This document shows, piece after piece, positions 13,164 through 44,778 of a stretch of DNA of 49,640 nucleotides. The notes beneath the pieces were generated by a model that was not told where the DNA came from, made no database searches, and worked only from the letters and a program-made list of their open reading frames with translations. Each line of letters begins with the position of its first letter. Positions within the stretch are counted from its first letter, which is position 1. This stretch comes from a virus: the IMG/VR virus record IMGVR_UViG_3300033151_000217, positions 1 through 49,640 of that record. One strand, 5' to 3'. Both the position numbers and the translations under genes were made by a program.

Positions 13164-13476
13164 TTCGCCCAACGGTTGGGGAGAGTGGAGTCGGCACGTT
13201 CTTTTGGAACTAAAACGACTTAACACTGCAATAGAGAACATGGTCAGCAAAACGACTGATAACGAGAACGACATTATTGCTTTGGGTACGAGACTTAAAG
13301 GCAAAAACGATCTTTGTGTCCAGCACCATGACGAGATCAAAGAGATCAAGCGTTCAGTGCAGAAGAACAGGGATATGGTTATGAGCCACAGGTTGATTGC
13401 CGCAATGATCAGTGCTGTTACTGCATTGGCTACTGCTGTAATTGTAGCCTACTTCTCCATGAAGGGTGGGGCTTGA
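13156..13476 (+). CDS. Coiled-coil protein with C-terminal membrane helix, holin/XhlA-like (106 aa)
   Basis: It overlaps the cupin gene by 8 bases. A heptad-rich helix fills residues about 15-75 (VLLELKRLNTAIENM and EIKEIKRSVQKNRDM). A single hydrophobic segment near the C-terminus, LIAAMISAVTALATAVIVAY (about 80-99), ends in MKGGA. This layout is that of XhlA-type and some type-III holin accessory proteins, placing it in the host inner membrane. No endolysin gene lies nearby, so lysis function is unproven. Confidence 0.5.
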   Translation: MSDSPNGWGEWSRHVLLELKRLNTAIENMVSKTTDNENDIIALGTRLKGKNDLCVQHHDEIKEIKRSVQKNRDMVMSHRLIAAMISAVTALATAVIVAYFSMKGGA

Positions 13477-14960: not shown

Positions 14961-17029
14961 GTTACAGCAAGGCACAGAGAATCTGGAACACCTTCCTTGA
15001 TTATGAGTCTCAACGCTCTGAGTGGGCCTTGAATGCGGCCAATTGCGAAGACTTCTTCTACGGGAAGCAGTGGACAGACAGAGAACTGAAGATCATTCAG
15101 GATAGAGGAATGGCTCCTCTGGTGATCAACAGGACCATGCCTATTATCCAGCAGGAAATGACGATCTTTCTTTCAAAGCGTCCTACATTCAGGCCATTCC
15201 CGGCTGGAGATGGGGATGTAAAGACTGCCGCAGTATTTGGAGACGCAATCCAGCATGTGTGGCATATCAGCCAAGGTGACAACCAGTACCAGATAACCAT
15301 GAACGATTTCTTTGTTCTGGGTGCAGGCTATATGCTGGCTTATATCGACCCCTATGCCGATGAAGGCCGTGGCGAGGTGATGATCAAGTCTACCCCGCCA
15401 TGGGATGTCTATGCTGATCCAAATAGCCGTGAGATTGATCTGAGTGACGCTCAGTACATTCTCATTTCAAGGCGTATCTCTCGTGAGCAGTTGTTGATGA
15501 TGTATCCAAACAAGGATGGCGTTATCAACAAGGCCGAGATCGAAGAGGGTTCCAACATAGACAGACCTGAGGCCCAGTCCAGTACGAACATGAACAGTTC
15601 GATTGTGAATATCAATTATGTAGCCCATGACAGCGAAGGCAAGATCAGGGTTACTGAGTGTTACGAGAAGGTGAAGAAGTCGTATTGGAAAGTCATGGAT
15701 GCGATGACAGGAAGCATCCACAGATACGAGAAGTTGCCCAAGGAATACAAGAATGTTGTTAAAAACAAGAATTCAAGGATACGGGCAATCAAGATTTATG
15801 AGAAGCGTGTCAAGGTTACTGTAACAGCAGGAGCAAACACGGTCATTGACGAGTACGAACTTCGCACCCCGATCTACCCCATTGTCCCATTCTTCCTGCA
15901 TCATCGCCGCAATCCCTACCCCATGGGAGATGTCGATGCGATCAAGGGACTCCAGCAGGAAGTCAATAAACGCCGATCAATCATGATCCACAATGCTACG
16001 TTGAGTGGCAATTACCGATTCCTTGCAGAGAAGAACACGATCACGAACAAAGAAGAGTTCCAGAAGAAGGGTTCTCAGCCGGGATTCATCCTTGAGTATC
16101 AAGCGACAGGTGGGGAGCCACCGAGGGAACTACTCCCTCAGCCCTTGCCCCCTGCGTTCATTCAGCTTGAGGGTGAAGCCAAAGCGGATATGGAGTACAC
16201 CCTTTCAGTCTTCGCTCACATGATGGGTTCAAACCAAGACGCTCCTGAAACATATAGAGGCCTGCTTGCCCTTGAGGAACGTGGACAGCAGAAGATCCAG
16301 TACAAGGCCGCACATGCGAAGCAGGGACTTAGGAACCTTGGATTGGTTGTTATGCATCTGATCCAGCAGACCTATTCTCCGCAGAAGATGTTGAGGGTCG
16401 TTGGCGAAGACAATGAAGAAGTTCGTGAAGTGTTCGCAAACGAAATGCAGATTGATCCCCTCACTGGAGAGCCTAAAACCCTCAACGATCTTACCATTGG
16501 CAATTACGACTTGATTATCGTTGATGGAACGAGTATGCCTTCAAACAGGATGGCCCTGCTGAATCTCTATCTTGAAATGTACCAGCTTGGTATTATTGAC
16601 AAGCAAGAGGTTCTCAAGAAAACCGATATTGTTGACCGTGAAGGGGTACTGGAGCGTACTGGAGAAGTCCAGCAGGCCCAGCAACAGTCAGCACAGCTTG
16701 AGGAAGCCCTCAAGAACGAGCAGGGACTCAACCAGACGCTTCGTAGAGCACTTCAGCAAACTGAGGTCCAAATGGGTAGCCAGAAATATCTTGTCGGTAT
16801 GGAACGTGAGGCCATTAAGACAGTTGCTACCGAGGATCTCAAACGCAAGCGGATGGGCGATGAGCTTCAGATGATGCGTGAGCGAATCAAGCTGATGGAA
16901 CGTGAAGCTAAGTCAGCGTCCGGTGCTCTCGTTGAGAAAGTCGGTGGAAAACTTGCTCTCATTCAGATGAGGGCCGAACTGGAGGCAGACCTTGAACGCA
17001 AACGAGCAAAACAGTCACAGTCTTCCTGA
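14945..17029 (+). CDS. Portal protein (694 aa)
   Basis: The product has the P22-type portal layout: N-terminal FYGKQWTDREL and INRTMPIIQQEMT, the wing/clip region with LYAD-like ENDPY elements (WDVYADPNS), a stem region rich in helices, and a long Gln/Glu-rich helical barrel at the C-terminus (about residues 570-694). It forms the dodecameric DNA gate at one vertex and binds TerL. It overlaps terL at its start, and the scaffold gene at its end. Confidence 0.9.
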   Translation: MASYISYSKAQRIWNTFLDYESQRSEWALNAANCEDFFYGKQWTDRELKIIQDRGMAPLVINRTMPIIQQEMTIFLSKRPTFRPFPAGDGDVKTAAVFGDAIQHVWHISQGDNQYQITMNDFFVLGAGYMLAYIDPYADEGRGEVMIKSTPPWDVYADPNSREIDLSDAQYILISRRISREQLLMMYPNKDGVINKAEIEEGSNIDRPEAQSSTNMNSSIVNINYVAHDSEGKIRVTECYEKVKKSYWKVMDAMTGSIHRYEKLPKEYKNVVKNKNSRIRAIKIYEKRVKVTVTAGANTVIDEYELRTPIYPIVPFFLHHRRNPYPMGDVDAIKGLQQEVNKRRSIMIHNATLSGNYRFLAEKNTITNKEEFQKKGSQPGFILEYQATGGEPPRELLPQPLPPAFIQLEGEAKADMEYTLSVFAHMMGSNQDAPETYRGLLALEERGQQKIQYKAAHAKQGLRNLGLVVMHLIQQTYSPQKMLRVVGEDNEEVREVFANEMQIDPLTGEPKTLNDLTIGNYDLIIVDGTSMPSNRMALLNLYLEMYQLGIIDKQEVLKKTDIVDREGVLERTGEVQQAQQQSAQLEEALKNEQGLNQTLRRALQQTEVQMGSQKYLVGMEREAIKTVATEDLKRKRMGDELQMMRERIKLMEREAKSASGALVEKVGGKLALIQMRAELEADLERKRAKQSQSS

Positions 17030-17808: not shown

Positions 17809-19371
17809 ATGGCTGCACCTATTATCAATCCAGCGACCTTTGTTAAGGACACTGGTTTCGATGTTGGGTCGAACAACAGTCAGGATGAGTTTGCAGGGTA
17901 TGGTACTGCATTCAACAACCCTGACCGCTTTGTTCTGGAGATGAAGAAGAACATTCATCTTATCTCCCCCAACGCTTCCCCCTTCCTGAGCTGGGCAACG
18001 ATGGTTCGCAAGAACCCCACGCCCCAGATCACCTACTCGTGGATGGAAGACGAGCTGTTCACCCATCGTGACACCACGATGATTCTGGAACGTGACTCTG
18101 ACGGCATGTTCATCCTCAAGGCCAAGCATGGTGGCGACTGGCAGGCATTCGAAGCCGCCGCTTTTGCTGATGTCTACAGTGAGACATTCAACGCCAACAA
18201 GCCCGTTATCTACATCAGCGTGACTGATGGAACTACCACGTTCAGTGTGGTTCCTCTTGCCGCTGGTTTGGCTGAAGGGCCGGGGACTTACACCTACAGC
18301 CCCGATGATGGTGGGTCTGACATCGACATGGCGAACTCGCTGATCATCATGGATTACTCCAGTGGTGCCGCCTCTGGTGTGATTGGTGGTTCTTATGGGA
18401 CCGACTACTACAAACAGCACTGCTACGGCATGACCAGTTTGCCTGACCTCGTTACTGAGGCCAAGCTGACTACCATGCTGGGTACTGCCGGTACTGTGGA
18501 AGTCACTGTCCATACCTTCACTCCTGATGAGCAGTTGCAGGGTTACGCTCAGGGTTCCGGCCTGCCGAACGAAACCCGCAAGCGGTCCCGCAGTGCTCAC
18601 AACGTCACCCAGATCTTCAAGACTCCCTATTCCATTGCCAACACGCTGAAGGCTGTTGAGCTGTACGGTGGACCTGAATTGGCCCGCCTGCGCCTCCGCA
18701 AGACCATCCAGCACAAGACGGAACTGGAACGGGCGATTCTCTTTCAGGGTGGTGGAGTGGAAGGAACCGATTGGGGAATGCTTCCCCTTGCTGGTTACGA
18801 GAACCCTCTGACTCGGTTCAAGGGCATTGGTGTAGGAGCCGCTAATCCCGGTTTCATTCGCACCAAGAATGCCGATCTTGACACTGGGTTTGAGTTGGAC
18901 GTTTCCAGCATGGCCACCTTCACCATGGCAGACTTCAATGCCCTGACGTACAGGATCTTCGATGACACTGTGGATGCTCCCAGTTCTGACAAGATCGTGT
19001 TCGCCTCTCCGTTGTGGTTGATGGCTCTGAGTGAACTTGCGCTGGCGCAGAGTGCTGGTGCGGCCTTCATCTTCGGAAACATTGATCAGACCCCCAACGC
19101 TCTTGGCGTTACCACTCGTAAGGTCATCACGCCCAATGGCAATTTGCACTTTGTGCCGATGCCGTTGTTCCGTGGTCAGTACGAGAAGTACGCCTTGGTC
19201 GTGGACTTCCAGAATGTCGAAATGCGTCCTCTCCGGAGCCGGGATACCCAGCTTCACGCCAATGTTGGCGGGATGGACATTGACGGCCAGTTGGATTTCC
19301 TGATCACTGAGATGGGATTCGAGATGCGTCACGAGTCCACTCACTGCATCCTGAAACTCAAGACCTCTTGA
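17809..19371 (+). CDS. Major capsid protein (520 aa)
   Basis: It follows AAAGGA and an ATG at 17809. The early segment SPFLSWATMVRKNPTPQITY followed by WMEDELFTHRD is typical of the DUF5309-like HK97-fold capsid proteins, where the E-loop and spine helix follow. Residues about 135-250 form an insertion with Gly/Thr-rich beta content, which could be a surface domain. The C-terminal region (YALVVDFQNVEMRPLRSRDT) fits the A domain. The codons use few rare triplets, as expected of the most abundant virion protein. Confidence 0.85.
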   Translation: MAAPIINPATFVKDTGFDVGSNNSQDEFAGYGTAFNNPDRFVLEMKKNIHLISPNASPFLSWATMVRKNPTPQITYSWMEDELFTHRDTTMILERDSDGMFILKAKHGGDWQAFEAAAFADVYSETFNANKPVIYISVTDGTTTFSVVPLAAGLAEGPGTYTYSPDDGGSDIDMANSLIIMDYSSGAASGVIGGSYGTDYYKQHCYGMTSLPDLVTEAKLTTMLGTAGTVEVTVHTFTPDEQLQGYAQGSGLPNETRKRSRSAHNVTQIFKTPYSIANTLKAVELYGGPELARLRLRKTIQHKTELERAILFQGGGVEGTDWGMLPLAGYENPLTRFKGIGVGAANPGFIRTKNADLDTGFELDVSSMATFTMADFNALTYRIFDDTVDAPSSDKIVFASPLWLMALSELALAQSAGAAFIFGNIDQTPNALGVTTRKVITPNGNLHFVPMPLFRGQYEKYALVVDFQNVEMRPLRSRDTQLHANVGGMDIDGQLDFLITEMGFEMRHESTHCILKLKTS

Positions 19372-26006: not shown

Positions 26007-27455
26007 ATGCCGAATGTATTCAGGAACAGCCCAATTGATTCCCTGACGATGGCAGTGAACTCACTGCAAGAGCGTCAGCAGGAAGCCCAGCGGGGACAGA
26101 TGCAAATGATGCAACTGGAATCTGACCTTGCCGACAAGGAGGCCGAGCGCAAGCTGATGCCACAGCGGTTGGAACTTGAAGAGGCGAAGCTCAACCATAC
26201 AACGATGATGGAAGAGCGTGGTATGAATATCGAAGTTGCCAAGGCAGGCATGGAGATCGGCACCCAGCGTTTGATGAACATGCTTCAGCTTGACGAGTTC
26301 ACCTACCAGAAGACGCTCAGGCCATACGAGAAGATGCAACGCAGGCTTGAGATCGAGATGATGGGCCTGAAGCGTTGGGCCTTACCCTTCCAGCTTCAGT
26401 CTGATATCAGGAAAGGTATCCAGACAAACGATGTCATGGGCTTGGTCAAGCTTGCCGCCGCACTGGATGGCACCCTGAACTCAATTGCCAAGAGCGAAGT
26501 CAGTGTTGGCAGTGCAATGGCGAAACAGGGAGAGGCCCAGCAGTGGTTTGCCGCAAGTGCCTATACCCAGAAGGAAGGGCATGGAGGAAAAATTCTTACG
26601 GACTTCCACAACAAGGGCCAAGAGCAGTTATTCAAGGGATCTCAAGAGCTGAACAAGGAAGTAACCGAAGAATCATTCATCTCAGATACGATGGCAGGAA
26701 TCGTACTGGAAGCGGAGCGTTCTGGAGACTTCATTGACAACAAGACAGGCAACTGGACAGACAAGGGAGATACGGTCCTTCTTGATAATCTGAAGTCGGC
26801 ATCTGCTATCGTCTATGCAGACAAGCTTTCTGATTGGGCATTTGCTGAAGGGAAATTCAAGAACGTCAAGGTTGAGGGCTACTCTGAGAAGATCAATGTG
26901 CCTCAGAGGATCAAGGCGATAAGGGAAGTCCCAGACGCTAAGATGACCAAAGAGATGTATGACGAACTCAGGGATCTTGAAGATGGGTTGATGCAGAGTA
27001 TCAAGTTTGACGGGAAAAGCTTCAAGGCCGAGGACTGGAGATCTGTTGAAGGAGCACCAGCGAATGAGATGGCTTGGGATGCTTTCCATGCGAACACTGA
27101 GGCGATGACAAACTTCAAGACGCTGATGATCTCAAATTCCAACATCTCTAGGCAGTCGAACATCTCAGGCAGTATCATGCAAGTGGTTGACTTGATCACT
27201 CAGAAGAGCCAAGATATTGCCGGTGGAGTTGCTGACCCAAAAGCTGAAGATGCAATCGGTCAGATGCAAGAGGGCTGGAGTATCCAGCGTGACGATTTCC
27301 TCAAGGGAATCAGGGATAGCGGCTGGGAGACAGAGGATGATACTCAGGAACTCAAAAGGATCATCTTGTTGAATCCTGAGAAGTTCGGGATCATTGGGCT
27401 TACTGGAGACGAAACGATTTCTAATTACTTCTACGGGAACTCTGAGGACAAGTAG
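26007..27455 (+). CDS. Internal virion protein, helical (482 aa)
   Basis: ATG at 26007 follows AGGAG. Residues about 15-115 form a long charged coiled coil (SLQERQQEAQRGQMQMMQLE; DKEAERKLMPQRLELEEAKL). The rest is helical and acidic with no enzyme signature. It resembles ejected core proteins that stack in the head above the portal. It is transcribed with the giant protein that follows, and together they probably enter the cell with DNA. Confidence 0.5.
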   Translation: MPNVFRNSPIDSLTMAVNSLQERQQEAQRGQMQMMQLESDLADKEAERKLMPQRLELEEAKLNHTTMMEERGMNIEVAKAGMEIGTQRLMNMLQLDEFTYQKTLRPYEKMQRRLEIEMMGLKRWALPFQLQSDIRKGIQTNDVMGLVKLAAALDGTLNSIAKSEVSVGSAMAKQGEAQQWFAASAYTQKEGHGGKILTDFHNKGQEQLFKGSQELNKEVTEESFISDTMAGIVLEAERSGDFIDNKTGNWTDKGDTVLLDNLKSASAIVYADKLSDWAFAEGKFKNVKVEGYSEKINVPQRIKAIREVPDAKMTKEMYDELRDLEDGLMQSIKFDGKSFKAEDWRSVEGAPANEMAWDAFHANTEAMTNFKTLMISNSNISRQSNISGSIMQVVDLITQKSQDIAGGVADPKAEDAIGQMQEGWSIQRDDFLKGIRDSGWETEDDTQELKRIILLNPEKFGIIGLTGDETISNYFYGNSEDK

Positions 27456-27517: not shown

Positions 27518-30500
27518 ATGGCAGACAAATACAGTCTCACTGTTCAAGAACGACAAGCACTAATGCCTATTCTCTTAGGCAAGAACTACACCGAAGAGGA
27601 CGAATGGAGAGCTGAGTTTGCCTTGTCTAAGGCCAATGGCGATACATCAACGGCCAAGATTGCTCTTGAAGCGTTACCAAACAAGGGTGCAGAGAGTAAG
27701 GACTTCGGATTCAGGGCCGCAGAAACAGACGTAACAGGCCCACCGAGAAACAGACCAACCACAACGAATTACGGAACCAGACTTGGCGATATGCTGAAGT
27801 CTGCCGGGGAAACTGCTCTCGATTTTGTTCCAAGAGCAGGCGAGAAATATGGCACTCCTGCCAGTGCTAGGCCCTTTGGCGGGATAACCCAAAATGATAT
27901 TGCAAACATGTTGGCTGATCCGACCAAGGTTCTCCATGGCCAGAAGATGAGTCGTGAAGATCGCAAGAAGATGAATGCGTTCTATCGTAAAACTGGCAAC
28001 AAAGAATTCGTTATCGAAGACCTTGATGATGATTTCGCTTGGGCTGAACGTGAAGTAATGGTCAGCTCAGAGACTCCGTATATTGGTCCATCAGATGGGC
28101 TGAGTTTTCTCCAGAAGGTTCAAGGCAGTCGTGAAGCCGATCTCTGGAACGCTACCAAGGCTGGTGCATATGGCTTTGTCAATAGCGGTACAGTGGGTCT
28201 GCTACATGGCCTGAATGCACTGACGAGGACTGCTGGACTTGATTCAAATTGGTGGACAGACGCAAAGAACACATGGCTTAGTGTCGAAGAGGATCAATAC
28301 TCTCGCAGTGCTGGGATGATTGGTAATGTACTTGGCTTCTTTGCTCCTACCAAGTGGGCTGGACTCGGCATAAAGGGTACGGCCAAGGGTGTTGGGTATG
28401 TTGCTGGGAAGGTGGCGGCCACTCGTGGAGCAAAGGTCGTTGCTGAGGTTGCTGGGAAGACTGCTGTAGGTAGGGCTACTGGAGCCGCAGTTGCGGGTAC
28501 TGCAAAGGTGGTTGCAAAAGCCGTTGAGGTTCCTCTCAATCTGGCTACAAGGGTAACGAGCAAAACAATCTTTGAGCTTCCCAAGAAGCTTGTAGACAAG
28601 GCTGGAACGTGGAAGGTCACGAAGGCCATATCCGAGACAAGTTTCGTTAAGGCAAGTGGCAAGGCGATTGATGACCTTGGAGGCAAGGTTGGCAGTGGAT
28701 GGGTTCACAGTAAGATTGCGGCCAATCCGGTACTTGCAAAGATATGGGAGAAGAACGGCGCACATGCTGTCCAACGGGCATTGAGCAAGACGATTACCCA
28801 AGCATGGAACAAGAGCCGTAGAACAAGTGTCAAGACACTCATCGAAGCTGGAGAGAAGGATGCCATAGACGAAGCCGAAAAGATGTTCATTGTGAACATG
28901 GAGAAGGAGATCAGGCGACTATATGGCAACAAGGTATCCAATGAAGTAGTTGGCGAGATGGTAGAGAATGCTCTTGGACAGTTCCAAAAGCATGTATCGA
29001 GCAGTGCAGGAAAAGCTGGTGATACCTTCAGGCGAATGCTGATGAATCCGCTTGGTATCAAGGGCCAGTATGCCGCATCTCTTGGACACAACATCTTGAA
29101 TCAGGCTACTCATGGTGCTCAGTGGTCTGCACACAGGGCTGTGATGACGTTCAACCAGATGTTAGGGCTGTCTGCTATGACAGTTCAGGCACCCGAGAAC
29201 GATCCGTGGTACACAAAGGGACAACTCTACGTTGCAGGAGCAAAGGACTACTTCCTACAGAATGCGAAGGACGAGTCATACTGGAGAACCTTTGCTTCTG
29301 GAGCCTTCTTCGCTTCTCATGGTGGACTATCCTACATCCCGAGCAATGTCCCGTTCCTTGGTAAAGTGGCTGGTGCGGCTAATCCATTCAGCAGTCTCAG
29401 AAAGGCTGTCTTTGGACCGAAGATCAGTGCAAGCAAGGCAGGAGAGATACTGGCCAAAGAGTTCGGTCCAGCGCATCAGCAACTCATGGGCAACATCAAC
29501 AGGATGTTCGGGCGCAAGGCTACCGACACGATTGCAAGGTTCCTGAGCAACGCTCCGCAGACAAATAAGAAGCTTGCTGTTTCGATGCTGAAGAAAGCGT
29601 TCAAGAAAGATCCCGAGTCATTGTCCAATTCGTTCCTTGGCAGAGTTGCGGCAATGATGAAATCGGAACGAGCTACGTTTAGGAGTTCGAAGAAGGACTT
29701 CAGGCGTGGAGCAGTTGATGACGCAATAGATGATCTCCAGTTCGATACTCGCCATGTAGAAACGCTTCTCAATACGGCAGGAAAGACTCCAGCACAGATT
29801 CGACGAGCCAGAGAGCTTATAATTGGACAGCTCAAAAGCAACATGTCTACAGTTGTAAGCAATTACAGGAAGACTGCAATGAAGCAGTTCATGAGGGACG
29901 GCCTCTATGTCTTCGGTGGAAGGGTTCCTTGGACCTTCTTATCAACTGGTGGATACCACATGCTCAGTGAAACCAACTGGGGCAGGGATGCTGATGTTGA
30001 AGAGAAGACTGAAATGCTCTCACATCTTGGCTTTTCTTTATGGGCATCTTCCGAACCTGTTTTCTCCGAAGGTGGCATTCATCTTACCCCGAGAGGTTGG
30101 GGTCGTGGACGCAAGGAACCTGACAGCGATTACATGCCGGGATATTCCGATCTCGCAATAGAGATGAACCACATGGAACGGCAGATGTTTTATATGGGTC
30201 TTGGTACTGCTAGGCATAAGTCTGCTCCGCAGGACTTGAACCCGAAAGAAACCGCATTGACTCTCGCCAAGCCTCTTGGAAGTCAACGTGCTCTTGTCAA
30301 ATCTATTGGCAAGAACATAAGCAAGCAGATGAAAGACGGTGCTCTTCGTGGTCTTGGTATCGACAAGACTCCCGGTATGCACACCGCCTACACTGTTCAG
30401 TATCCCGGTCAGGCCCCGGTAGCACCGGGACAGCTCGGGCCTATGGTCAACGCTATAAGCCATACAAGTACAGAGATTGAACATGGTAAGGAGATCCTTT

Positions 30501-33500
30501 TCTCGTTGCTGAAGAATACTCCAGAGATGCATGATCTTTTCAACATCGGTGGACTTACCCCTGCCGATGGAACCGAGTGGGTCAAAGCTCTTGAGCGTGA
30601 TGAATCAACGAGGGACTTCATTCTTTCTGCGGCTGTCCATGCGATGAAGACTCAGTTCATCAGTGATGGGATCATGGAGCCGGGAGATGAACTCAGGATC
30701 AGTCATGCCCTCAAAGCAACTGCGGCCGAAGGCCAGAAGATCAATGGGCAGTTCCGAAAGGCGGCAGTAGAGGCTATCAATGCACTCCGCTTGGAGCAGA
30801 TGAACGTCAAGGGTACTGACAGAAGCTCCAGCGTGGTAGATTGGTTCAACTTCAGGGACAACGACAAGCTGAATACTCGCATTGATAACCAGCTTGATAT
30901 CGGGAAGCTCTTTGAGTTGAACGTCCATGGCAGGGTTCTTGATGACCTCAATGCTCCCGGTGAGACTCTTATCAGCAATGAGCAGTCCTACTATTCTGCA
31001 TCTGAAGGAATGCTTGAAGAAGAAGTTTCTGCAATCTTGGATCGCTTTGATCAACGGGTAAAGGAAATGGGTGTTGATGATACCCTGAATCTTTCTGATG
31101 GGACGCTGAGGAATCACGTTCTTAGAAGCCTTGAAAGCTACGGACAGAGCACTTGGGCTACGATGATGGAAGAGGATCATCCTGTCCCACTGGACACCAG
31201 ACCCGGTGTACTCACCAAGGAGCGTGTCTTCGAAGGCTTCCGCTTTGGCGGCTTGCTTGCCAAGGACAACACAACAAGCACGTATGTACTGAAACAGTTG
31301 CCAGAGCAGGTTCTCAGGGAGATGGAAGAGCCGCTGAAGACTGAAACAAAATCAGCGCACTACTTCCTGAAGAACGAGCCTGATGTCTTTGTGCCAAGTG
31401 AAAGCCTTTACGAGAAGAGTCCTGATTGGGTTATCAAGGGCAAGAGTGATGTTCGCATCAACAAGCCGATAACCTTTGGGCCAGTAACTCACCCCAAGTA
31501 CATGAATGGCCAGCAACAGGCCCCCGGCTTCCAGCACGAGAGCGGCATGGTTGGGGCAATGGCAGACATAGGGCTGTCCCTAAGTGGATACCATCAGGCA
31601 CAGAGGGGCATTGGCAGGCTCTTGCAGTACCGCAAGTCCGAGTTCAGTGACAGCGATGTTGCGGCTATTGCCGCCATTGATGATGCAGGGTTCTTCCATT
31701 ACGGGGAGAAGGGTCGTAGGGCGATCCCTGCGAACGAGCTGATCATGGCTGTTGGTGGACGGGTATTCACTGGCGATGAGCAGATGGCTGTTGATATCAG
31801 GGCGCACTTCGATGCTGTCCGTGAGGCATGGAAAGATCCTACCGCAACAGGTGATATCAATTATGAGATAATCACCCCGAAATCGTACCTCAAGAAGATC
31901 ATCGAATCTATTGAATCGTCAAGGGGAGCACCCATGACGAACTCAGAGATCAGCTCACTTGAGAACTGGATGGAAGGCTCAAGCCTTACTGCATATAACA
32001 ACGTGATAGAACGGTTGACGAAGAAAGGGTTCCTTGAGGGCTGGGCAACCAGTGACAATACGCTTGAAGGAAACCAAGAGGTCTTCAACAAGACAGGTGC
32101 AGACAACGAAGAGATCATGGAGCGTTTGAGCTTTGTGCTGAATCCTCTTGCCGAGGCAACTACTGACCTAGAGAGGCGTGAGCTTCTCCAGCAGTTGAGC
32201 AAGAAGGTGCTTGGCCTGAAGAGGAAAGCCGCACCAAAGACAGTGATACGGATTGACAAACTCCACAGAGACATCCAGCAGCTTTTGCTAAAGAACAATC
32301 CACGATCAATAGAGAAGCTTCACAGGATGCTTCAGGGGACCAAGGCTCTTGTTATCACACAGCAGGGTGGAAGACCCAGTATCCGCATGGACCTTGAACG
32401 TCTTGAGGGTGGCAACATCGAGCACATTATTGAGAAGCTTGACCTGATCAATCGTGGGATCACGGACTCTCAGGGAATGAGGGAAGAGTTCCTCAAGCGA
32501 ACGAATGAGGCTGGAGCAGATATAAGATCGTTGCTACCGGACATGGCACCTCCGAATCGTACCAATGGGGTCATGGATGTCATGACTGATGTTGGTATCG
32601 GTACAGGGTCAGCCCTTTCAGCAAAGACGCTGGAGGGTCTGGGCAACATCACAGCACAGCTTCTCACCCTTGGGATACCGGGGCAGGAGTTGACGATTGA
32701 CAACTTCAGGAGTGGGTACTCAGGCATCCTGAAGGCTTCCATTGCCGAGATAGTCAAAGATGATATCCCAACACCATCGGAATCTGGTGCTACTCCATTC
32801 AGGACTAGTGCTCAGATGAAGAACCGTGTTGACAACCTCAGCGATTTAGATGTCTACAGTATCCTTTTCGATACATCAGACATGCGTGAATACAGGATCA
32901 TAACTGCTGGGAAAGAGATCCATGCCGAATCTCAGTATTCATCTCTTCCGGTCAAGGATGCTGGACAACGAGATGAAGTAAGGGCCTCTGTAAAGGAACC
33001 GAAATTCACTGAAGGAGGATTCTCAGTAAAGACGGCGACAAGAAAGAGAACCATTGTTGATGACTTTGGAGATGACCTTGATACTCATGTCAGTTTGCTG
33101 AGGCACTTCAATTCCGAGACAAAGGAAGATCTGCTGACAAACAGCTCTGCACGAAGGAGAACCGGCGATACTGCATGGCATAATGGAGTAGATGCTATTG
33201 ATCCGTCAGAACGTGGTGCTCACATGTACCGCTTGGATGACAATGGACAAATAGCAGTAAACAGGATGCTCATTCTCGAAAAGACAGAGGATGAAAGCAT
33301 GTTCATCCCTGTTCCGTTTACTTCCGGTGAAACCACAACGTACATCGAGTGGCTTAACGGGATGGTTGGCAGGCTTGACGGACGGGTTGGAGAAGATACT
33401 GACCAGCAGGCGTTGGTTGACCTTGGGCGTAATCTTGCAAGCGATCTGACCGACTGGCAAGCAGAGCAGTACAACACCACACTGCCTGACCATGACATGT

Positions 33501-36500
33501 ATCGGTTCATCACAAGCAAAGACAATGATTATGTCAGGGGAGATCTCACCAACCTGTACCGGATGGGGTATCGTGAACGTATGTTCGGCTCTGCCCAGAT
33601 GATCAGCCATGCGGTGAAGGATGCTGGCTTGAAGGGTAGCAAGAGAATCAGGCAACTCTCAAGCGACAGTGTGCGAAGGCTTGAGCCTACAGCCCTCAAC
33701 ATGGCTATTCAAGACGTTCTGGATACATGGGGACCGGATGGTGAAGAGATCGTAAGAAACTTCAGTGAAGGTACTGGACGCAATACGAGATACAGGGTTC
33801 TTGCAGTCAACGAAGAAGAGCTTCAGTCAATGTTCGGTGTAGATGATCTTGACGGAGCCTTCATGCCTCACCCGATCCTCATTGCCGCAATGGCTAAGTC
33901 AATGGGATATGGTCCCGGCCATAATCTCATGAAGGCGTTTGTCCATGTTCCGGTTGGTGATTCCATGTTGGCAGATAAGGGCCTCATGGGTGTTCCGCTA
34001 CCGAGGGTTGTTCAGTTGATGGATCGCCTTGGTGTAGCCGCTATCGAACCCAGATCAACAGTGAAGATCGGTGCAAGCGCAATAGACTTCGTTGATGTAG
34101 AGGTCAATGGCAGGCCACGGCATGTGCATGTAGCGGCATGGGGGACTGCTGATGGAAGTGGACGGACAGCAAGGGCAGATCGAGGAGTCTATACGGTCGG
34201 TGCAGAGGACATCAAGTTCCAGAGTATGCCGCATCCAGAAGAATCGGGAACGGTGCTTTCTGGGCAGATGACACTTGATTGGCACCCTGACGCTGTTGCT
34301 GATTTCAATTCAATGCTTCCGGTACAGGATATTGCTCAACTTGCTGGTGCTGTTCTTGGGGACATCCAGCCAGAGAACCTTGCATTGGCCAGAGCCTTGA
34401 TGACAGACATAGAGCTGAACCCGATCATTGCAGAGGGTGATCTTCTGTCTGGTAAGGCGGCAATGTCGAGTCAGGTAATGGCATGGTCAACAGCCACGAG
34501 TCCTGCGATCTTCTTCAGGCGACAGGTACAGAACAGGCTTCTCTCAATCATGAGGGAAACACTCTTCAAGAGGTACTCTCGTCATGGTGGCAAGGGTTCT
34601 TTCATGCCTGATGCCACATACGCAAAGACAAGTGGAGAGGTTGACCTTGCAAATTACCTGAAGAATACGCCTGTAGAGATCAGTGGTGGAGCAATGGGCG
34701 TCAAAAGGACAATGACTCCTGTTCGTGGCAAGGATGGGGTTATTTCCCTGAACAATGACGGTACTCCAAGGACACGAGAATGGACTCCAGCAGATTCGGA
34801 TGATTTCGTTTCTGCAAATTGGCCACTGAAAATAAACAGTCCCGGTAGCAACCACTACAATGTGCCTTCAAATCAGGTTGAGGGCATTCCCGGTCGTGAG
34901 ATTCCTTGGAATCCTCATCGCTTGGATCAGGGACCAACTACCAATGCGGCTTACGGTGCGGCTGAAGAGATTTGGGCTGGTGGACATACTGGAGTAAGGA
35001 CACAGAACACAACTCCGTTCCAGCAAATCTTCGCTCCCGGCGTGATAACCGGATTGAGCAGGAGAGGTGTTACCAACTTTGAGGTTGCCGCTGAGGCCGC
35101 TGGTGCGATGTACCACGAGATCATGACCAATACTAACGTAGTAGACATGACTCGCTCGGGTGGATTGATAGACCAACATGCGGAAAGCCTCAGGGCTGTT
35201 GTCCCAAATGAAAACCATCACTCTATTGATGCACTTGCAGTGGAGGTCAAGGACTTCATCACTGAATTTCTGTATAACGGTACACCTGAAGGTGGACTGA
35301 ACTCAGGTGGTATCGAAGGGTCTATCTCTGCTGGGAATTCTCAAGCATTGATGACCATGCTCACAGGCAGGCGCACAGGGGACACTTGGGATGCAGAGCT
35401 TGATGCCTATGATTCAAATGAACGGATGGTTGACCCACGAACAGGCGAAGAGCTTGCTAATCACGACGGGAAGACTCCTGTAACTTATGGGCAGTTCATG
35501 TTTGACCAACGCTCTCCGAGTGGACAGCCAAACGACACCGTACCGAGCTTCACGTTGTCATTCCTGCCCGAAAGCATGGGCGCACAGATCATCATTAACA
35601 GGATTGATCAAGCAGGGATTCAGCAGGGAGATAATGATGGTGATAAATCCAACATCATCTTCAGTGCTCCTGCTGGAATGGTTGGTGAGATTCTACGTAT
35701 CAGGAATATCATGGGTGGCATTCCATCTCAGAAGACAAAGAAGATGGAGCATGGATTCTCGTATATCGTACCAAGAGATTCTGATGAGTACAGTACGAGC
35801 AAGACAAACGGGAACCAGTACCTCAGGTATCTTGCTGACCAGAAGATTGCCAAGGCGATGACAGGACAGTTGGTGAATGTAAGGACAGCGGCATCCAACA
35901 TCATTTCTAACAACATAGGCTTTGAGTATGATGTCATCGGAGGTGGTTCAGTCAACATCGAGCCAGTTGCAAGATACGATGAGTTCATGGAAGAACACAT
36001 GCCTATAATGATCGACCTGATCTCAAGGGTGCAGAAGGTTCTTGATGTTCCCGGTGAGTTCATGGAAGAAGATCTGAAGAACATGAATGTTGATCATGAA
36101 ATCTTCGGTAGACTAATGAGAAAGGGAACCAGAGGCAAGAACCAGACAGACTATGTGCCATCAATAGAAGACCCATCACGACAAGGAAGCAAGGGCCAGT
36201 TGAACGATATTGAGTACCATCTTCTTGGTGCAATACGTAGGCTTATCAGTCGCATCTCTTCGATATCTCGTGATGAGTTTGTTGGGGGAGAGTCTGTTTC
36301 GAAGAACATGGATGTCATGATCGACTTCGCTATTGATGTGAAGAAGATCTCAAGAAGCGATGTATCTGTTGAAACAGGATTGAAAGAGTTCTTGAAAGAG
36401 GATCTTGAGGCTCTTGGCTACAAGGACGAAGCACTGCAACATGCGATAAACACACTCAGGATTAGGACAAACAACAACGTACTGTTCTCTGACTTCATTG

Positions 36501-38098
36501 CAGATGCGATTGTCAGAGTAGGCACGATGCTTGAGGGTGATCTCATTGGTGTTGAAACCTATGACTCTGCTCAGGGAAGAGAAGCCCTGCTTACGATGAC
36601 TCACGAGACTGACAACATGAGGAAGCTCAGGAAGATCAGGGGTGAGTATTCGATGAGGCAGTATATCTCGTATGCGGAAAGGATGGCGGCTGAGGCTGGC
36701 CCTGCTGGTGGACACTGGGCAGACGAAGCGAAGATCCAGAAGGCAAAGCTCAGGACGCTCGATGCCGAAGCTACTGCGATGAAGCTTGAGGTCCAGAGGC
36801 CCAAGGACATACGAGAACTGAAGCGTTTCGAAGTATCCGCAATGGAAGGTGCGGCAATGCTGACAACGCTTATGAATACTCCACGAGAGATGGTCGGCAA
36901 CGAAGCGGCTGAGGCTGATGCCATGGCCACTGAGCTGATCCGAGCAAGAAACCAGCTTTGGGGAGCACAGATCGGGCAAGAGGGCGGCAAGTACCTAAGC
37001 AGTACAGGCATTGTCAAAGGAAGGACTCGTGAAGTTATCTTGAATGACATTACAAGGGTCTACTTTGAATCGTTCCTTGAGCCTGATGAAAGCAACTTCG
37101 AAGAGCTTCTTGGAAGACTGCTTGAGCTTGAGCGTCTTGCTACGTACAAGCACAAGGCTTCTGACTATATCGCATTCAAGCCAATGAAGAATGATCTAGT
37201 AGAAGCTGCTTATCAGTTCAGCCCTGTCAGGACGTTGCAGTTCATGACAAGGTTGATGGAGACTTCGATAATCTCTTCTACTCTTTGGAGGAAGGGAACA
37301 GTAAGGAACCTTAAAGAGCTTCAGGCAATGGCTGGAGACATGGATACATGGGATGCTCAGGTTGGTGAAGCAAGAAGCCTCATCAGACGTAACATGGATT
37401 GGAGCGTAGAGAACCCGGTAATGGATACGCTGGATCGCTTGGCTTTATCCAGACCAAGAGAGGTCACTCTGGGTATCTTCGGTGATGTTGTTGCTTCGGG
37501 TCGTGGAGGTGGCCAGATACAGCCAGAGAGCCAGCTACTAAGGGATGCTATGCAAATAGCCGCAGACCTTGAGATGAACCCTAAGGATGTCATCTACGCA
37601 ACGCTGAAGCCCAACAAGAATGTTGTGTTGGATATTGCATCGTTGAGGGCGTTCTATTCAAGAGACTTTGATGATCAAGGTATTATCGAGGTCAAGAAGA
37701 AGGCGTTCAACATGGGCGACATGGGATTTGCAAAGGACATCGAGCTTGAATACAGGAGAAGTGAGGCCAAGGCACAGAACGAAGCTACGGCACTGAAGAA
37801 CGAGGGTCGTGACAAGGACAGTCAGATACCATTCACAACTCCTGAGAGGGTCAAGCTTAATCCGAAGGACATTGCTGTGATAAATAGTAGAGCACTCAAG
37901 CGACTGGGTAATGTCAGCAAGATCATAAGCGGAGTGTCGTACCGCATGGAACAGATGAGGATAAAGACAGACTCAGAACTTCCCAAGGACTACGACAATG
38001 GACTTTCTGCTCCTGCAAGTCGATCTGCAAAGACACTCAGAAAGATGAGCGTCAATACTCAAATGAAGCGCAATCGTAAAATCTGTGGAGGCTCGTGA
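27518..38098 (+). CDS. Giant virion protein (3526 aa) with double-psi beta-barrel RNA polymerase-like core
   Basis: I choose ATG at 27518, behind GGAGG, over the GTG at 27509. Seen directly: DNDGD at residues 2705-2709; RSP at 2665-2667, 40 residues before it (the E. coli beta' RAPTLH-to-DFDGD distance is 35); then KIAKAMTGQLVN at about 2776-2787. These are the features of the Mg-binding barrel of multisubunit, QDE-1-like and crAss-like RNA polymerases. A possible partner barrel with lysines lies upstream: DGAFM at 2112, K2139, K2154 (ADKGLMG) and K2183 (STVKIG). Alternatively RHGGKG at 2355-2360 recalls the bacterial beta-subunit lysine motif. Residues about 265-350 are Gly/Ala/Val-rich and hydrophobic. 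No T7-type motifs are seen. Setting among internal virion genes suggests packaging and injection, as with N4 virion polymerase. The polymerase call is strong on motif and spacing, but untested. Confidence 0.7.
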   Translation: MADKYSLTVQERQALMPILLGKNYTEEDEWRAEFALSKANGDTSTAKIALEALPNKGAESKDFGFRAAETDVTGPPRNRPTTTNYGTRLGDMLKSAGETALDFVPRAGEKYGTPASARPFGGITQNDIANMLADPTKVLHGQKMSREDRKKMNAFYRKTGNKEFVIEDLDDDFAWAEREVMVSSETPYIGPSDGLSFLQKVQGSREADLWNATKAGAYGFVNSGTVGLLHGLNALTRTAGLDSNWWTDAKNTWLSVEEDQYSRSAGMIGNVLGFFAPTKWAGLGIKGTAKGVGYVAGKVAATRGAKVVAEVAGKTAVGRATGAAVAGTAKVVAKAVEVPLNLATRVTSKTIFELPKKLVDKAGTWKVTKAISETSFVKASGKAIDDLGGKVGSGWVHSKIAANPVLAKIWEKNGAHAVQRALSKTITQAWNKSRRTSVKTLIEAGEKDAIDEAEKMFIVNMEKEIRRLYGNKVSNEVVGEMVENALGQFQKHVSSSAGKAGDTFRRMLMNPLGIKGQYAASLGHNILNQATHGAQWSAHRAVMTFNQMLGLSAMTVQAPENDPWYTKGQLYVAGAKDYFLQNAKDESYWRTFASGAFFASHGGLSYIPSNVPFLGKVAGAANPFSSLRKAVFGPKISASKAGEILAKEFGPAHQQLMGNINRMFGRKATDTIARFLSNAPQTNKKLAVSMLKKAFKKDPESLSNSFLGRVAAMMKSERATFRSSKKDFRRGAVDDAIDDLQFDTRHVETLLNTAGKTPAQIRRARELIIGQLKSNMSTVVSNYRKTAMKQFMRDGLYVFGGRVPWTFLSTGGYHMLSETNWGRDADVEEKTEMLSHLGFSLWASSEPVFSEGGIHLTPRGWGRGRKEPDSDYMPGYSDLAIEMNHMERQMFYMGLGTARHKSAPQDLNPKETALTLAKPLGSQRALVKSIGKNISKQMKDGALRGLGIDKTPGMHTAYTVQYPGQAPVAPGQLGPMVNAISHTSTEIEHGKEILFSLLKNTPEMHDLFNIGGLTPADGTEWVKALERDESTRDFILSAAVHAMKTQFISDGIMEPGDELRISHALKATAAEGQKINGQFRKAAVEAINALRLEQMNVKGTDRSSSVVDWFNFRDNDKLNTRIDNQLDIGKLFELNVHGRVLDDLNAPGETLISNEQSYYSASEGMLEEEVSAILDRFDQRVKEMGVDDTLNLSDGTLRNHVLRSLESYGQSTWATMMEEDHPVPLDTRPGVLTKERVFEGFRFGGLLAKDNTTSTYVLKQLPEQVLREMEEPLKTETKSAHYFLKNEPDVFVPSESLYEKSPDWVIKGKSDVRINKPITFGPVTHPKYMNGQQQAPGFQHESGMVGAMADIGLSLSGYHQAQRGIGRLLQYRKSEFSDSDVAAIAAIDDAGFFHYGEKGRRAIPANELIMAVGGRVFTGDEQMAVDIRAHFDAVREAWKDPTATGDINYEIITPKSYLKKIIESIESSRGAPMTNSEISSLENWMEGSSLTAYNNVIERLTKKGFLEGWATSDNTLEGNQEVFNKTGADNEEIMERLSFVLNPLAEATTDLERRELLQQLSKKVLGLKRKAAPKTVIRIDKLHRDIQQLLLKNNPRSIEKLHRMLQGTKALVITQQGGRPSIRMDLERLEGGNIEHIIEKLDLINRGITDSQGMREEFLKRTNEAGADIRSLLPDMAPPNRTNGVMDVMTDVGIGTGSALSAKTLEGLGNITAQLLTLGIPGQELTIDNFRSGYSGILKASIAEIVKDDIPTPSESGATPFRTSAQMKNRVDNLSDLDVYSILFDTSDMREYRIITAGKEIHAESQYSSLPVKDAGQRDEVRASVKEPKFTEGGFSVKTATRKRTIVDDFGDDLDTHVSLLRHFNSETKEDLLTNSSARRRTGDTAWHNGVDAIDPSERGAHMYRLDDNGQIAVNRMLILEKTEDESMFIPVPFTSGETTTYIEWLNGMVGRLDGRVGEDTDQQALVDLGRNLASDLTDWQAEQYNTTLPDHDMYRFITSKDNDYVRGDLTNLYRMGYRERMFGSAQMISHAVKDAGLKGSKRIRQLSSDSVRRLEPTALNMAIQDVLDTWGPDGEEIVRNFSEGTGRNTRYRVLAVNEEELQSMFGVDDLDGAFMPHPILIAAMAKSMGYGPGHNLMKAFVHVPVGDSMLADKGLMGVPLPRVVQLMDRLGVAAIEPRSTVKIGASAIDFVDVEVNGRPRHVHVAAWGTADGSGRTARADRGVYTVGAEDIKFQSMPHPEESGTVLSGQMTLDWHPDAVADFNSMLPVQDIAQLAGAVLGDIQPENLALARALMTDIELNPIIAEGDLLSGKAAMSSQVMAWSTATSPAIFFRRQVQNRLLSIMRETLFKRYSRHGGKGSFMPDATYAKTSGEVDLANYLKNTPVEISGGAMGVKRTMTPVRGKDGVISLNNDGTPRTREWTPADSDDFVSANWPLKINSPGSNHYNVPSNQVEGIPGREIPWNPHRLDQGPTTNAAYGAAEEIWAGGHTGVRTQNTTPFQQIFAPGVITGLSRRGVTNFEVAAEAAGAMYHEIMTNTNVVDMTRSGGLIDQHAESLRAVVPNENHHSIDALAVEVKDFITEFLYNGTPEGGLNSGGIEGSISAGNSQALMTMLTGRRTGDTWDAELDAYDSNERMVDPRTGEELANHDGKTPVTYGQFMFDQRSPSGQPNDTVPSFTLSFLPESMGAQIIINRIDQAGIQQGDNDGDKSNIIFSAPAGMVGEILRIRNIMGGIPSQKTKKMEHGFSYIVPRDSDEYSTSKTNGNQYLRYLADQKIAKAMTGQLVNVRTAASNIISNNIGFEYDVIGGGSVNIEPVARYDEFMEEHMPIMIDLISRVQKVLDVPGEFMEEDLKNMNVDHEIFGRLMRKGTRGKNQTDYVPSIEDPSRQGSKGQLNDIEYHLLGAIRRLISRISSISRDEFVGGESVSKNMDVMIDFAIDVKKISRSDVSVETGLKEFLKEDLEALGYKDEALQHAINTLRIRTNNNVLFSDFIADAIVRVGTMLEGDLIGVETYDSAQGREALLTMTHETDNMRKLRKIRGEYSMRQYISYAERMAAEAGPAGGHWADEAKIQKAKLRTLDAEATAMKLEVQRPKDIRELKRFEVSAMEGAAMLTTLMNTPREMVGNEAAEADAMATELIRARNQLWGAQIGQEGGKYLSSTGIVKGRTREVILNDITRVYFESFLEPDESNFEELLGRLLELERLATYKHKASDYIAFKPMKNDLVEAAYQFSPVRTLQFMTRLMETSIISSTLWRKGTVRNLKELQAMAGDMDTWDAQVGEARSLIRRNMDWSVENPVMDTLDRLALSRPREVTLGIFGDVVASGRGGGQIQPESQLLRDAMQIAADLEMNPKDVIYATLKPNKNVVLDIASLRAFYSRDFDDQGIIEVKKKAFNMGDMGFAKDIELEYRRSEAKAQNEATALKNEGRDKDSQIPFTTPERVKLNPKDIAVINSRALKRLGNVSKIISGVSYRMEQMRIKTDSELPKDYDNGLSAPASRSAKTLRKMSVNTQMKRNRKICGGS

Positions 38099-41000
38099 TG
38101 GTTGACTGCATAGGTGATGGAAGAATCGAGATCGACAAGGACATCATTGAGCGTGAAAAGGAACTTGGCAAGATTGAACAAAGGTTCATGAAGGAGCAGA
38201 GTCCTGTTGCTGAGTTCATTAGGGCAGAACTTGGGATGCACTTCAGGGATATTGGCATCGGAGAGGACGGCCTCTTCGGTGTCTATCGTTCATGGGTGTT
38301 TGATGAAGTTGGCATTGAGATTGGCGAACATGAGTCATATAGCCTACCAACAAGGCAGGATACCGCAAGGTTGAAGATGTTGCTAGACGATGCAGAAAAT
38401 AAGTTCGACAACATGGTTAAGTATGTTGACAAGGTTCTTGCCAAGCATGACGGAGACTTTAATGATGCATTTGAAGCAGTCAAGGGTGGCAAGCATAAGC
38501 TGATCGGCATGGGTCAAAAAGTTGCGCCGCTGACAAAGCGATACAGCTTCAGGAAGCTCCCTCTTGGGCAGAGGTTGTACGATAATGTTCTACAGGCTAA
38601 GGGACAGCACGAGGCCAGAACAGAGACAATGCAAAGCGAACTGAACAACTTGATGAAGAGCATTATAGATATCTCTGGCGCAAGGAACGATGCAGAGATC
38701 AAGCGACTTGGTAAAATTGATGCAGAGATCAGCCGTCTTGAGATGAAGCAAGAAGGCATGAAACAAATGGCAGACAGAGGAACCCTACCTGAAGAATCAG
38801 GTGTTGAACTGGTAGAGGTTACAAACAAGCTCAGGGGCCTGAACGCTGAACGTGTTTCAAAACTGAACAACTATGAAGACAATCCTGCTACTGCATTCGC
38901 AAGCAAGCTCATTGATGTAATCGAACATAAGGACTTTGTAAAAAGGAAGAAGACTGCAACTGCGATTTCAAAAGAAATGGCAATAAAGCCTGCACATATC
39001 GAAAATCTTGCTGATGGATTTGAGAGGTTCTTCAAGAAGATGGTTGTCATCGGTGAAGAAACGGCAGTCAATTCGGCAGAGCTTATCGAGATGCATCTTG
39101 AGCGGCTCAGGGTAAGCCCAGAAGATCGTCAGCGAATCATCGACTCAACAGCAGGGCTGGACTTTGCGGCCATGGAGAAGGGCTACTTCCCACGCATGGA
39201 GATCGGGGCTGGAGATGGATTCGTACTAGAGCAGATAGTCAACATGCTTGATGATGCAAATATCGTAGAATCAAAGAGCATCACAGGAGATGTGACTAAG
39301 CTTGTTGAAAGCTACATGAAGCACAGGTCTGCTGAGGCACCATCATCTATGAGGCGAAGAAACAGGAACGCAATAGATGTTGCAGTGAAGTACACCACAC
39401 AGATGTTGCACACCAACTTGACAACCAAGATGCTACTTGAGATGGAACGTCCGGCAATGGTTCTTGGCGATATCCTTAGCAAGTTGGATGGGTTTCAAAA
39501 GGAAATCTACCTTGAAGCTTGGCAACAGCAGATTGAACGGCTCAGGGCTGATGTAATCGGTACTGCAAGCCATGGAGTAGCGGCAAGCCTCAGTCGCTCT
39601 GTATTGGCCACTACGACAGGGCTGAAGCTTGGTGGACTCAACATACCGGGGATCATCAGGAACACTGTTGACGGCATGTATATCGCATCTGCGGCGGCTG
39701 GATGGACTGCGGCATATAAGCTTGTTCCAGAGAAAAAGAAGAACAATCCTCAATTCAGGATTGATTTGGAAAGATATCAAAGTGATCAGCAAAGAGCACT
39801 TGCTATTGATAAGTTCTGGAATCCAGAAAAAGGTGCGATGCATGACAGGGAATCCCTGATCGGTACGTTTGGTGAAGAGCTTGCTGATGCAGGACTTGGG
39901 GTAAGACTACAGAACAGGAAGAAGGTCAGTGACTTTGCCGCAATACTGGAGAAGGGTACTGGAGCCGCCGCACAAGCATTGATGACATACACTGGATGGA
40001 AAAAGGGTGAGAACATACCAAGAAAATTTTCCAGTGACACAGGAGCCGCAATGGGCCTGATGATAGCAGAGGAAGACTACCTTCCGATGTTTATTGAAAG
40101 AAGATTAAGTAGCGCACATGCTAAGAAATTTGGACTGAACATAAAGAACGCCAATAGTGGTGATGAAGAGCTTTGGAGGCCAGAATACGAGAAGCTTGCC
40201 AAGAAGATGACAAACGACATGGGATTCGAAATCATGGCTGGTAGCCAGTGGATCTACGATGCTCAGGAAAGGCACTGGATCGAGAGCTTTGAACCCGGTG
40301 GAGTCAAGATCGGCAAAGCCATAGCCATGTTCCAGCACTATCCCGTATCGTGGAATACGGCAATGCTGTTGGCTACTCAGGATATCTACAAGCAGACTAA
40401 AGCTGGTGGATTCAGGGCTGGATTCGGTGCTACTACAAAAGAGAAGCGATGGGCAATGAACCAAGACTATGCGTTCAACCCAAAGCTGACGTTTATGCTG
40501 TCAATGGCGATGATGTTGACTGCTGGAATCATAGCTGAAAAAGAGAAAGCATATGGACGGAAGATCGGGTACAGGATGTACGGAATGGCCCAAAATCCTG
40601 TACTTGAAACAATACAGGGATTCGCTGAAGCAAAGAGGGAATATGGTGCGGCACAGAAAAGGGCCTTCTTTGGACAGGGAGTCGTTTCTCAATGGACAGG
40701 GCCTCATGTCCAGTATTTCATAGATGCAATGAATATTGCCGCAATTGAGCTTGGTCAAACAAACGAAGAGTGGCCAGAGTGGTTGTCATTCACACTCCAG
40801 CAGACAATAGGATTTGCTCCTAACGAAGAGAACGTAAATTGGGACCCAGACGACAGGATGGAAGGCATTCTCAGTCGGTTGCAGAAGGTCGTTCCATTCG
40901 TGAATCGTGGAGTGCCAATAATCGAAAATCAACGTGAACGTAAGGACGCTGATGTTCTCATGTGGGACTTACTTAGGGCTACGTTTAATGTAACTGGTGG

Positions 41001-41121
41001 AAGATATGCACCCATTCCAGAGGATGAAGAGGGTACTCTCACTCCAGAACAGTTGCTTAGGTCTGAGCAAATGGAAGCACAGAATAGGTTCGTTGAAGAA
41101 CAGGATATTGGAGCACAGTAA
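38098..41121 (+). CDS. Large internal virion (ejection) protein (1007 aa)
   Basis: ATG at 38098 overlaps the giant gene's stop (TGATG) with GGAGG upstream. The N-terminal 300 residues are helical coiled coil (IEREKELGKIEQRFMKEQ; EISRLEMKQEGMKQMADR). The middle has a hydrophobic segment near residues 515-550 (LNIPGIIRNTVDGMYIASAA), and a second lies near 800-820 (LTFMLSMAMMLTAGIIAE). These could insert in the host membrane to form a DNA/protein conduit. The final part is acidic. No enzyme motif is visible. Coupled translation suggests a fixed ratio with the giant protein. Confidence 0.6.
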   Translation: MVDCIGDGRIEIDKDIIEREKELGKIEQRFMKEQSPVAEFIRAELGMHFRDIGIGEDGLFGVYRSWVFDEVGIEIGEHESYSLPTRQDTARLKMLLDDAENKFDNMVKYVDKVLAKHDGDFNDAFEAVKGGKHKLIGMGQKVAPLTKRYSFRKLPLGQRLYDNVLQAKGQHEARTETMQSELNNLMKSIIDISGARNDAEIKRLGKIDAEISRLEMKQEGMKQMADRGTLPEESGVELVEVTNKLRGLNAERVSKLNNYEDNPATAFASKLIDVIEHKDFVKRKKTATAISKEMAIKPAHIENLADGFERFFKKMVVIGEETAVNSAELIEMHLERLRVSPEDRQRIIDSTAGLDFAAMEKGYFPRMEIGAGDGFVLEQIVNMLDDANIVESKSITGDVTKLVESYMKHRSAEAPSSMRRRNRNAIDVAVKYTTQMLHTNLTTKMLLEMERPAMVLGDILSKLDGFQKEIYLEAWQQQIERLRADVIGTASHGVAASLSRSVLATTTGLKLGGLNIPGIIRNTVDGMYIASAAAGWTAAYKLVPEKKKNNPQFRIDLERYQSDQQRALAIDKFWNPEKGAMHDRESLIGTFGEELADAGLGVRLQNRKKVSDFAAILEKGTGAAAQALMTYTGWKKGENIPRKFSSDTGAAMGLMIAEEDYLPMFIERRLSSAHAKKFGLNIKNANSGDEELWRPEYEKLAKKMTNDMGFEIMAGSQWIYDAQERHWIESFEPGGVKIGKAIAMFQHYPVSWNTAMLLATQDIYKQTKAGGFRAGFGATTKEKRWAMNQDYAFNPKLTFMLSMAMMLTAGIIAEKEKAYGRKIGYRMYGMAQNPVLETIQGFAEAKREYGAAQKRAFFGQGVVSQWTGPHVQYFIDAMNIAAIELGQTNEEWPEWLSFTLQQTIGFAPNEENVNWDPDDRMEGILSRLQKVVPFVNRGVPIIENQRERKDADVLMWDLLRATFNVTGGRYAPIPEDEEGTLTPEQLLRSEQMEAQNRFVEEQDIGAQ

Positions 41122-41868: not shown

Positions 41869-42212
41869 CAGTTCACTCCTCCATGAACAATCTTGTCAAC
41901 AGGGACATCATCTTCATCCTTGTCTTCTTCCTCATCAATCAACCTCAACTCTTCAGTCGTGATCGCATTCATCTTGTAGACAAGCCACTGTGCAATCTCA
42001 ATAGCATGGTCAACATCATGTTCAGCGATAGTGGAAGCACCCATGTACCGAGCACTCGCCTGCAACATGTTATTGGCAATGCTTCCCACCGAGTTCATGG
42101 TCTGCAAGATGTTGTTCTTGGCGATCTCATTAGCAGATGGTACTCGTGGAGGTACGTTCTGATTGGGATTGCCCTGTGGGATCTGCGGAATCGGCCTCTT
42201 GTTTTTGCTCAC
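41868..42212 (-). CDS. Hypothetical protein (114 aa), GTG start
   Basis: The GTG at 42212 follows AAAGGA at 7 bases. The first 30 residues are Pro/Asn-rich and basic (KNKRPIPQIPQGNPNQN), then an amphipathic helical core (ILQTMNSVGSIANNMLQASA) and an acidic C-terminal run (EEEDKDEDD). No domain is recognised. Its stop overlaps the start of the secreted protein gene. Confidence 0.6.
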   Translation of the reverse strand: MSKNKRPIPQIPQGNPNQNVPPRVPSANEIAKNNILQTMNSVGSIANNMLQASARYMGASTIAEHDVDHAIEIAQWLVYKMNAITTEELRLIDEEEDKDEDDVPVDKIVHGGVN

Positions 42213-42234
42213 TGTGAGTTCCTTTCGGGAATGG

Positions 42235-44776: not shown

Positions 44777-44778
44777 CT

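Follow-up and report, generated by a model that had tools for sequence, protein, structure and literature searches.

A very probable single-chain, two-barrel RNA polymerase domain in the giant protein of a group of non-crAss-like phages with genomes of about 48-50 kb

The linear IMG/VR virus record analysed here, whose whole length of 49,640 bases we refer to as the window, contains one giant gene, and the question it raises is whether its protein of 3,526 residues carries an RNA polymerase. A reading made from the sequence alone had proposed this on the basis of a DNDGD motif, which it took for the catalytic motif of a single-chain, multisubunit-like enzyme of a possibly new family. The open reading frame (27509-38098, + strand) has 3,529 open codons counted from a GTG; its first ATG, at position 27518, is preceded at a distance of 8 nt by a GGAGG and starts the protein of 3,526 residues. 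Residue numbers used below follow the ORF numbering from the GTG at 27509 and are 3 lower when counted from the ATG. Sequence searches of the giant protein against Pfam, PHROGs and the PDB gave zero matches. Judging from the comparisons described below, residues ~2010-2965, about 57-84% of the way along the chain, very probably constitute a single-chain two-barrel RNA polymerase within a giant, probably injected protein of phages of ~48-50 kb that are not detectably crAss-like.

The sequence-only reading was right in placing the gene among virion genes. On the + strand of the window, terminase, portal, capsid and other virion-type genes precede the giant gene, which is followed by a 1,008-aa ORF (Table 1). 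Beyond this ORF, the opposite strand (41170-49640) carries an early/replication cluster with matches to RusA, a DnaB-type helicase and an exonuclease; none of the ORFs scanned could be recognised as a DNA polymerase. The right end of the contig may be incomplete. Upstream of the terminase gene lies a 1,789-aa ORF (6866-12235), the C-terminus of which is matched by a PHROG of unknown function. Its counterpart in one relative (G002) has 2,144 aa and shares ~50% identity across only 347 aa, and a role as tail fibre or host-range protein is possible. The nearest named relatives of the portal protein include KPP25 and PEp14, and a short tail is plausible by analogy.

Table 1. Positions in the window of the giant gene, its context genes and its conserved segments
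Feature	Position	Strand	Evidence
Giant gene, candidate virion protein with RNA polymerase domain at ~residues 2010-2965	27518..38098	+	
Terminase large subunit (context)	13473..14960	+	phrog_38, E 6e-93
Portal protein (context)	14945..17029	+	phrog_156, E 2e-80
Major capsid protein (context)	17809..19371	+	phrog_1328, E 2e-22
482-aa ORF directly upstream of the giant gene, candidate ejection/virion protein	26007..27455	+	Synteny in G002, G014, G019
1,008-aa ORF after the giant gene, candidate partner virion protein	38095..41121	+	Same order in five relatives
DPBB-B-like block, aa 2095-2262: D2115-G2116, K2142, K2157, K2186-x-G2188	33791..34294	+	Invariant residues, six full sequences
K2157, candidate catalytic lysine (crAss K1027)	33977..33979	+	Conservation and gp66 alignment
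K2186 of K-x-G, candidate catalytic lysine (crAss K1065)	34064..34066	+	Conservation and gp66 alignment
DPBB-A-like block, aa 2640-2780	35426..35848	+	Profile match to crAss gp66 catalytic block
R-S-P, aa 2668-2670, R-x-P conserved in two-barrel RNA polymerases	35510..35518	+	R and P invariant in the six full sequences and in nine crAss RNA polymerases
DNDGD, aa 2708-2712, DxDxD putative metal-binding motif	35630..35644	+	Aligned to gp66 D1361/D1363/D1365
D2922..G2926, tentatively a counterpart of the D..K segment that is conserved after the barrel	36272..36286	+	Invariant, six full sequences

When the polymerase block was used as a single sequence or small profile, searches of IMG/VR, phages and GTDB contigs returned only G002, and a search for the DNA pattern R-x-P...P-x-D...DxDGD retrieved G002 together with L036, the latter by chance and out of frame. 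Since such direct searches with the block gave at most one contig, relatives were sought by walking outward from the portal protein, and the contigs reached in this way were then searched with profiles for the giant gene. This walk yielded, in IMG/VR, six syntenic giant homologues (G002, G007, G014, G017, G019 and G008) and the more distant G011; G008 is an N-terminal fragment only, and the other five homologues are full relatives. The giant ORF occupies the same position in all seven, and in the five full relatives it has the same neighbours on both sides. The giant proteins of the portal relatives PEp14, KPP25 and MW202615 contain no DxDGD and gave no profile match. Contig ends overlap in G011 and G017, and the genomes of the group are therefore about 48 kb.

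In the case of G011, the portal protein is 51% identical and the giant gene, at the same position, spans the contig join. No blastp similarity exists between its giant protein and that of the window; the DPBB-B profile of the window matches it (iE 7.4e-7), and its DFDGDQ aligns with the DNDGD of the window. As G011 lacks both the R of R-x-P and K2142, it is regarded as a more divergent member. This genome (L035) is that of a complete phage of ~48.2 kb whose match to the family is through the DPBB-B profile only, and its giant ORF (6030-18425, - strand) contains DFDGDQTMAHNP, which is unusually near the bacterial beta' motif NADFDGDQMAVH.

On its own, the D.DGD motif is weak and just mildly unusual. 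When the giant protein was shuffled 2,000 times, it appeared in 131 of the resulting sequences (6.6%), and the longer pattern R.P.{33,40}D.D.D in 38; in the window itself, translated in all six frames, this longer pattern is found a single time. The motif is nevertheless more than chance, because it is invariant across giant proteins that are only 17-36% identical to the one in the window: its three aspartates are present in the window and in all six relatives covering the region (seven sequences). The variants DNDGD, DYDKD, DYDFD, DYDYD, DYDID and DFDGD show that the fourth position (G, K, F, Y or I) is not conserved, and hence the signature is DxDxD. Thus, the three aspartates of the DxDGD proposed by the sequence-only reading hold, but its glycine does not, the signature being the DxDxD of crAss gp66. 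The position it gave for DNDGD in the ORF was correct, as were both spacings, namely R-S-P 40 residues before the motif and KIAKAMTGQLVN (beginning at residue 2779, 35843) about 70 residues after it. In G007 (L030) the motif is DYDKD, with a lysine where G, I or V is usual and the rest of the block conserved, and this could possibly represent an altered or inactive catalytic loop.

Conservation extends well beyond the three aspartates. Only 58 of the 3,529 columns are invariant across the six full sequences, and they include K2142, K2157, K2186-x-G2188, R2668-x-P2670, N2675-D2676, D2708, D2710 and D2712. K2157 and K2186 are located ~520 residues upstream of DxDxD, outside the region considered previously. 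When the bridge helix and trigger loop were sought after the DPBB-A-like block, the alignment of the D2922/G2926 segment with the gp66 profile was below significance.

To compare this arrangement with crAss-type enzymes, we aligned nine gp66-type RNA polymerases, of which eight belong to Crassvirales, the ninth being that of Flavobacterium phage Fpv1; phi14:2 gp66 is among the nine. Their invariant residues include K1012, K1027, K1065-x-G1067, R1322-x-P1324 and D1361/1363/1365, an order that matches that of the window family. The spacing between the first two lysines is 15 in both groups, and the distance from R to D is 40 in the window and 39 in the crAss enzymes. The catalytic stretch reads RIPNQGQSSND...ILPEAMGDTIV...DFDIDK in gp66 and RSPSGQPND...FLPESMGAQII...DNDGDK in the window, the fourth motif residue of the crAss enzymes being I or V (DFDID/DFDVD). 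With hhalign, the catalytic block of six sequences matched with P 2.5e-4 and a score of 29.9 (best of 300 column-shuffled decoys, 19.8), and that of three sequences with P 4.7e-4, a real score that none of the 300 column-shuffled decoys reached. The lysine block, on the K1027/K1065-x-G1067 side, matched with P 6.4e-4 and a score of 30.0 (best of 200 decoys, 20.5). When long profiles were aligned, these two blocks were the top two matches (1 and 2), and they were colinear. Likewise, a three-sequence HMM of the window family placed three crAss polymerases as the top non-family targets, above all decoys and at the catalytic aspartates. The hhalign probabilities are just 28-43%, a six-sequence HMM ranked most crAss matches below decoys, and the reverse search with crAss-derived HMMs remained at noise level. 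Although each P value is modest, chance is unlikely because two independent, colinear blocks match with corresponding catalytic residues. The profile match to a known RNA polymerase family that the sequence-only reading looked for is therefore found, in both barrel blocks and to crAss gp66. This match, with the motifs near structural genes, upholds its single-chain, multisubunit-like polymerase, except that the closest enzymes found are of the gp66 type and not cellular beta' subunits. A direct relationship to cellular beta' was set aside, since the best matches are single-chain enzymes.

Some of the sequences compared merit comment in themselves. The protein of Flavobacterium phage Fpv1 (L052), a phage outside Crassvirales, has 4,401 aa, is annotated simply as 'virion structural protein' and contains the gp66-type catalytic block RTP...DYDID, which makes it a candidate for a further giant virion polymerase. 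Three crAss RNA polymerase genes (L049, L050 and L051) are publicly labelled 'DNA helicase', 'DprA-like' and 'nuclear pore complex-like protein', and these labels look wrong.

AlphaFold models built with four and seven sequences had a pLDDT of 39 and 48, with the poorest values (about 30-40) in the barrels, and a Foldseek search with these low-confidence models returned nothing meaningful. Structure prediction was thus uninformative, and we counted it neither for nor against the polymerase.

Phi14:2 gp66, a virion RNA polymerase (PDB 6VR4), is like the window protein a single chain in which D, K, K, K-x-G, R-x-P and DxDxD follow in the same order, and its gene, g066, which lies in the run of structural or transcription genes, comes after the terminase, portal and capsid genes, as does the giant gene. 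In contrast, 482 residues separate K-x-G from R-x-P in the window and 257 in gp66, and blastp-level similarity between the two proteins is absent. Nor do the structural genes of the window group, with its genomes of ~48-50 kb, show detectable similarity to those of phi14:2: in blastp comparisons the terminase large subunits gave an E of 0.96, and the portal and major capsid proteins were unmatched. YonO of Bacillus phage SPbeta also has R-S-P ~40 residues before an identical DNDGDK; however, it is an 839-aa stand-alone protein encoded outside a structural gene run, and its profile match is not significant. Thermus phage P23-45 gp96 is a two-barrel polymerase in a giant virion protein, with R-N-P followed by DFDGD, but P23-45 is a long-tailed phage in which the polymerase forms the N-terminal part of the tape measure protein, and the sequence match is not significant. 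The N-terminal polymerase and membrane segments typical of gp96 were not found in the window protein: its domain lies at 2010-2965 of 3,526, and no stretch of 19 residues in it is strongly hydrophobic (maximum 1.23). In QDE-1 (PMC1750930), the active site is made up of three aspartates (1007-1011) and, from the other barrel, DPBB1, the lysines K743 and K767. QDE-1 and cellular RNA-dependent RNA polymerases are likewise single-chain two-barrel enzymes, with lysines 24 apart compared with 29 in the window; QDE-1, a eukaryotic silencing enzyme, is set beside the window by published positions only. Finally, coliphage N4 vRNAP (gp50) is an ejected RNA polymerase of about 3,500 residues with its catalytic domain within the giant chain (PMC12633501). 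It has a T7-type fold and is probably not homologous to the window protein, which would nevertheless work in a similar way. The T7-type domain PF00940 found no match in the seven genomes, in a search in which the controls were silent too, and the giant protein is Pfam-empty; homology to N4 vRNAP is unsupported.

Taken together, we consider it likely that residues ~2010-2965 of this giant, probably structural protein are a gp66-related, two-barrel, DNA-dependent RNA polymerase that is packed, ejected and used for early transcription. Polymerase homology and motif conservation are established at the level of sequence; packaging and ejection we infer by analogy, from the position of the gene and from gp66, gp96 and N4 vRNAP, and promoter use and polymerase activity would follow the example of gp66, P23-45 gp96 and N4. 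The barrel at ~2095-2262 would supply K2157 and K2186, and that at ~2640-2780 would hold the catalytic Mg on D2708/D2710/D2712. The protein would most likely be packed in the virion and ejected into the host with or ahead of the DNA, where the polymerase would transcribe early genes before the host polymerase is taken over.

Could the resemblance to polymerases be fortuitous, DxDxD being an unrelated calcium- or metal-binding loop of a structural protein? The frequency of D.DGD in shuffled sequences, and a fold predicted only at low confidence, would leave room for such a loop. Against it stand two independent blocks, colinear and each scoring above every decoy in the comparison with the crAss polymerase profile, and the conservation of the lysines, of R-x-P and of the aspartates; we regard such a loop as extremely unlikely. 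It is also very unlikely, if somewhat less so, that in some members the polymerase core inherited from an ancestor has degenerated, leaving a giant ejection protein with no more than a structural or DNA-binding role. The lysine at the fourth motif position of G007, and the residues missing from G011, could be taken as signs of decay; against this, all metal-binding aspartates and K2157/K2186 are invariant at 17-22% identity, and the crAss enzymes tolerate I or V at the fourth position.

A further alternative accepts the two-barrel polymerase but has it made after infection, as a non-virion protein, or acting in the infected cell only, despite the location of its gene among structural genes. 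There is a precedent in P23-45, which also encodes gp64, a non-virion two-barrel polymerase annotated as a head protein. We nevertheless consider this alternative improbable: in the relatives the gene lies inside the late structural run, the protein is of giant size, and the parallel gp66 and N4 vRNAP are virion proteins.

A packaged and ejected polymerase thus being our preferred reading, its novelty has to be qualified. Both crAss-like phages (PMC7886860) and P23-45, with gp96 (PMC10770324), are known to have two-barrel virion polymerases that are giant or fused to a tail protein, and because gp66 and gp96 have already been proven experimentally as virion polymerases of this fold, the new family suggested by the sequence-only reading holds only in the sense of a divergent lineage. 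From its sequences, this lineage looks new and very divergent, and of a kind already known. Whether it deserves to be treated as a family in its own right of two-barrel virion RNA polymerases, apart from crAss gp66, residing in giant ejected proteins of non-crAss phages of ~48-50 kb, with an enlarged inter-barrel segment of ~480 residues and, in some members (G011), a beta'-like DFDGDQ, is in our opinion an evenly balanced matter.

In the literature found, proof of injected single-chain two-barrel RNA polymerases exists for crAss-like phages and one Thermus phage only. An injected crAss-type polymerase now seems to be present in another group of phages as well, one that has short genomes and is unrelated to the first. 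The combination of K...K-x-G, R-x-P and DxDxD provides an annotation handle for giant phage proteins that family libraries miss, and the window phage group offers a compact system for a polymerase within a giant ejection protein. With a third lineage, in which genomes are small and crAss capsid genes are not detectable, it seems that the packaging of multisubunit-type polymerases has arisen or spread on more than one occasion.
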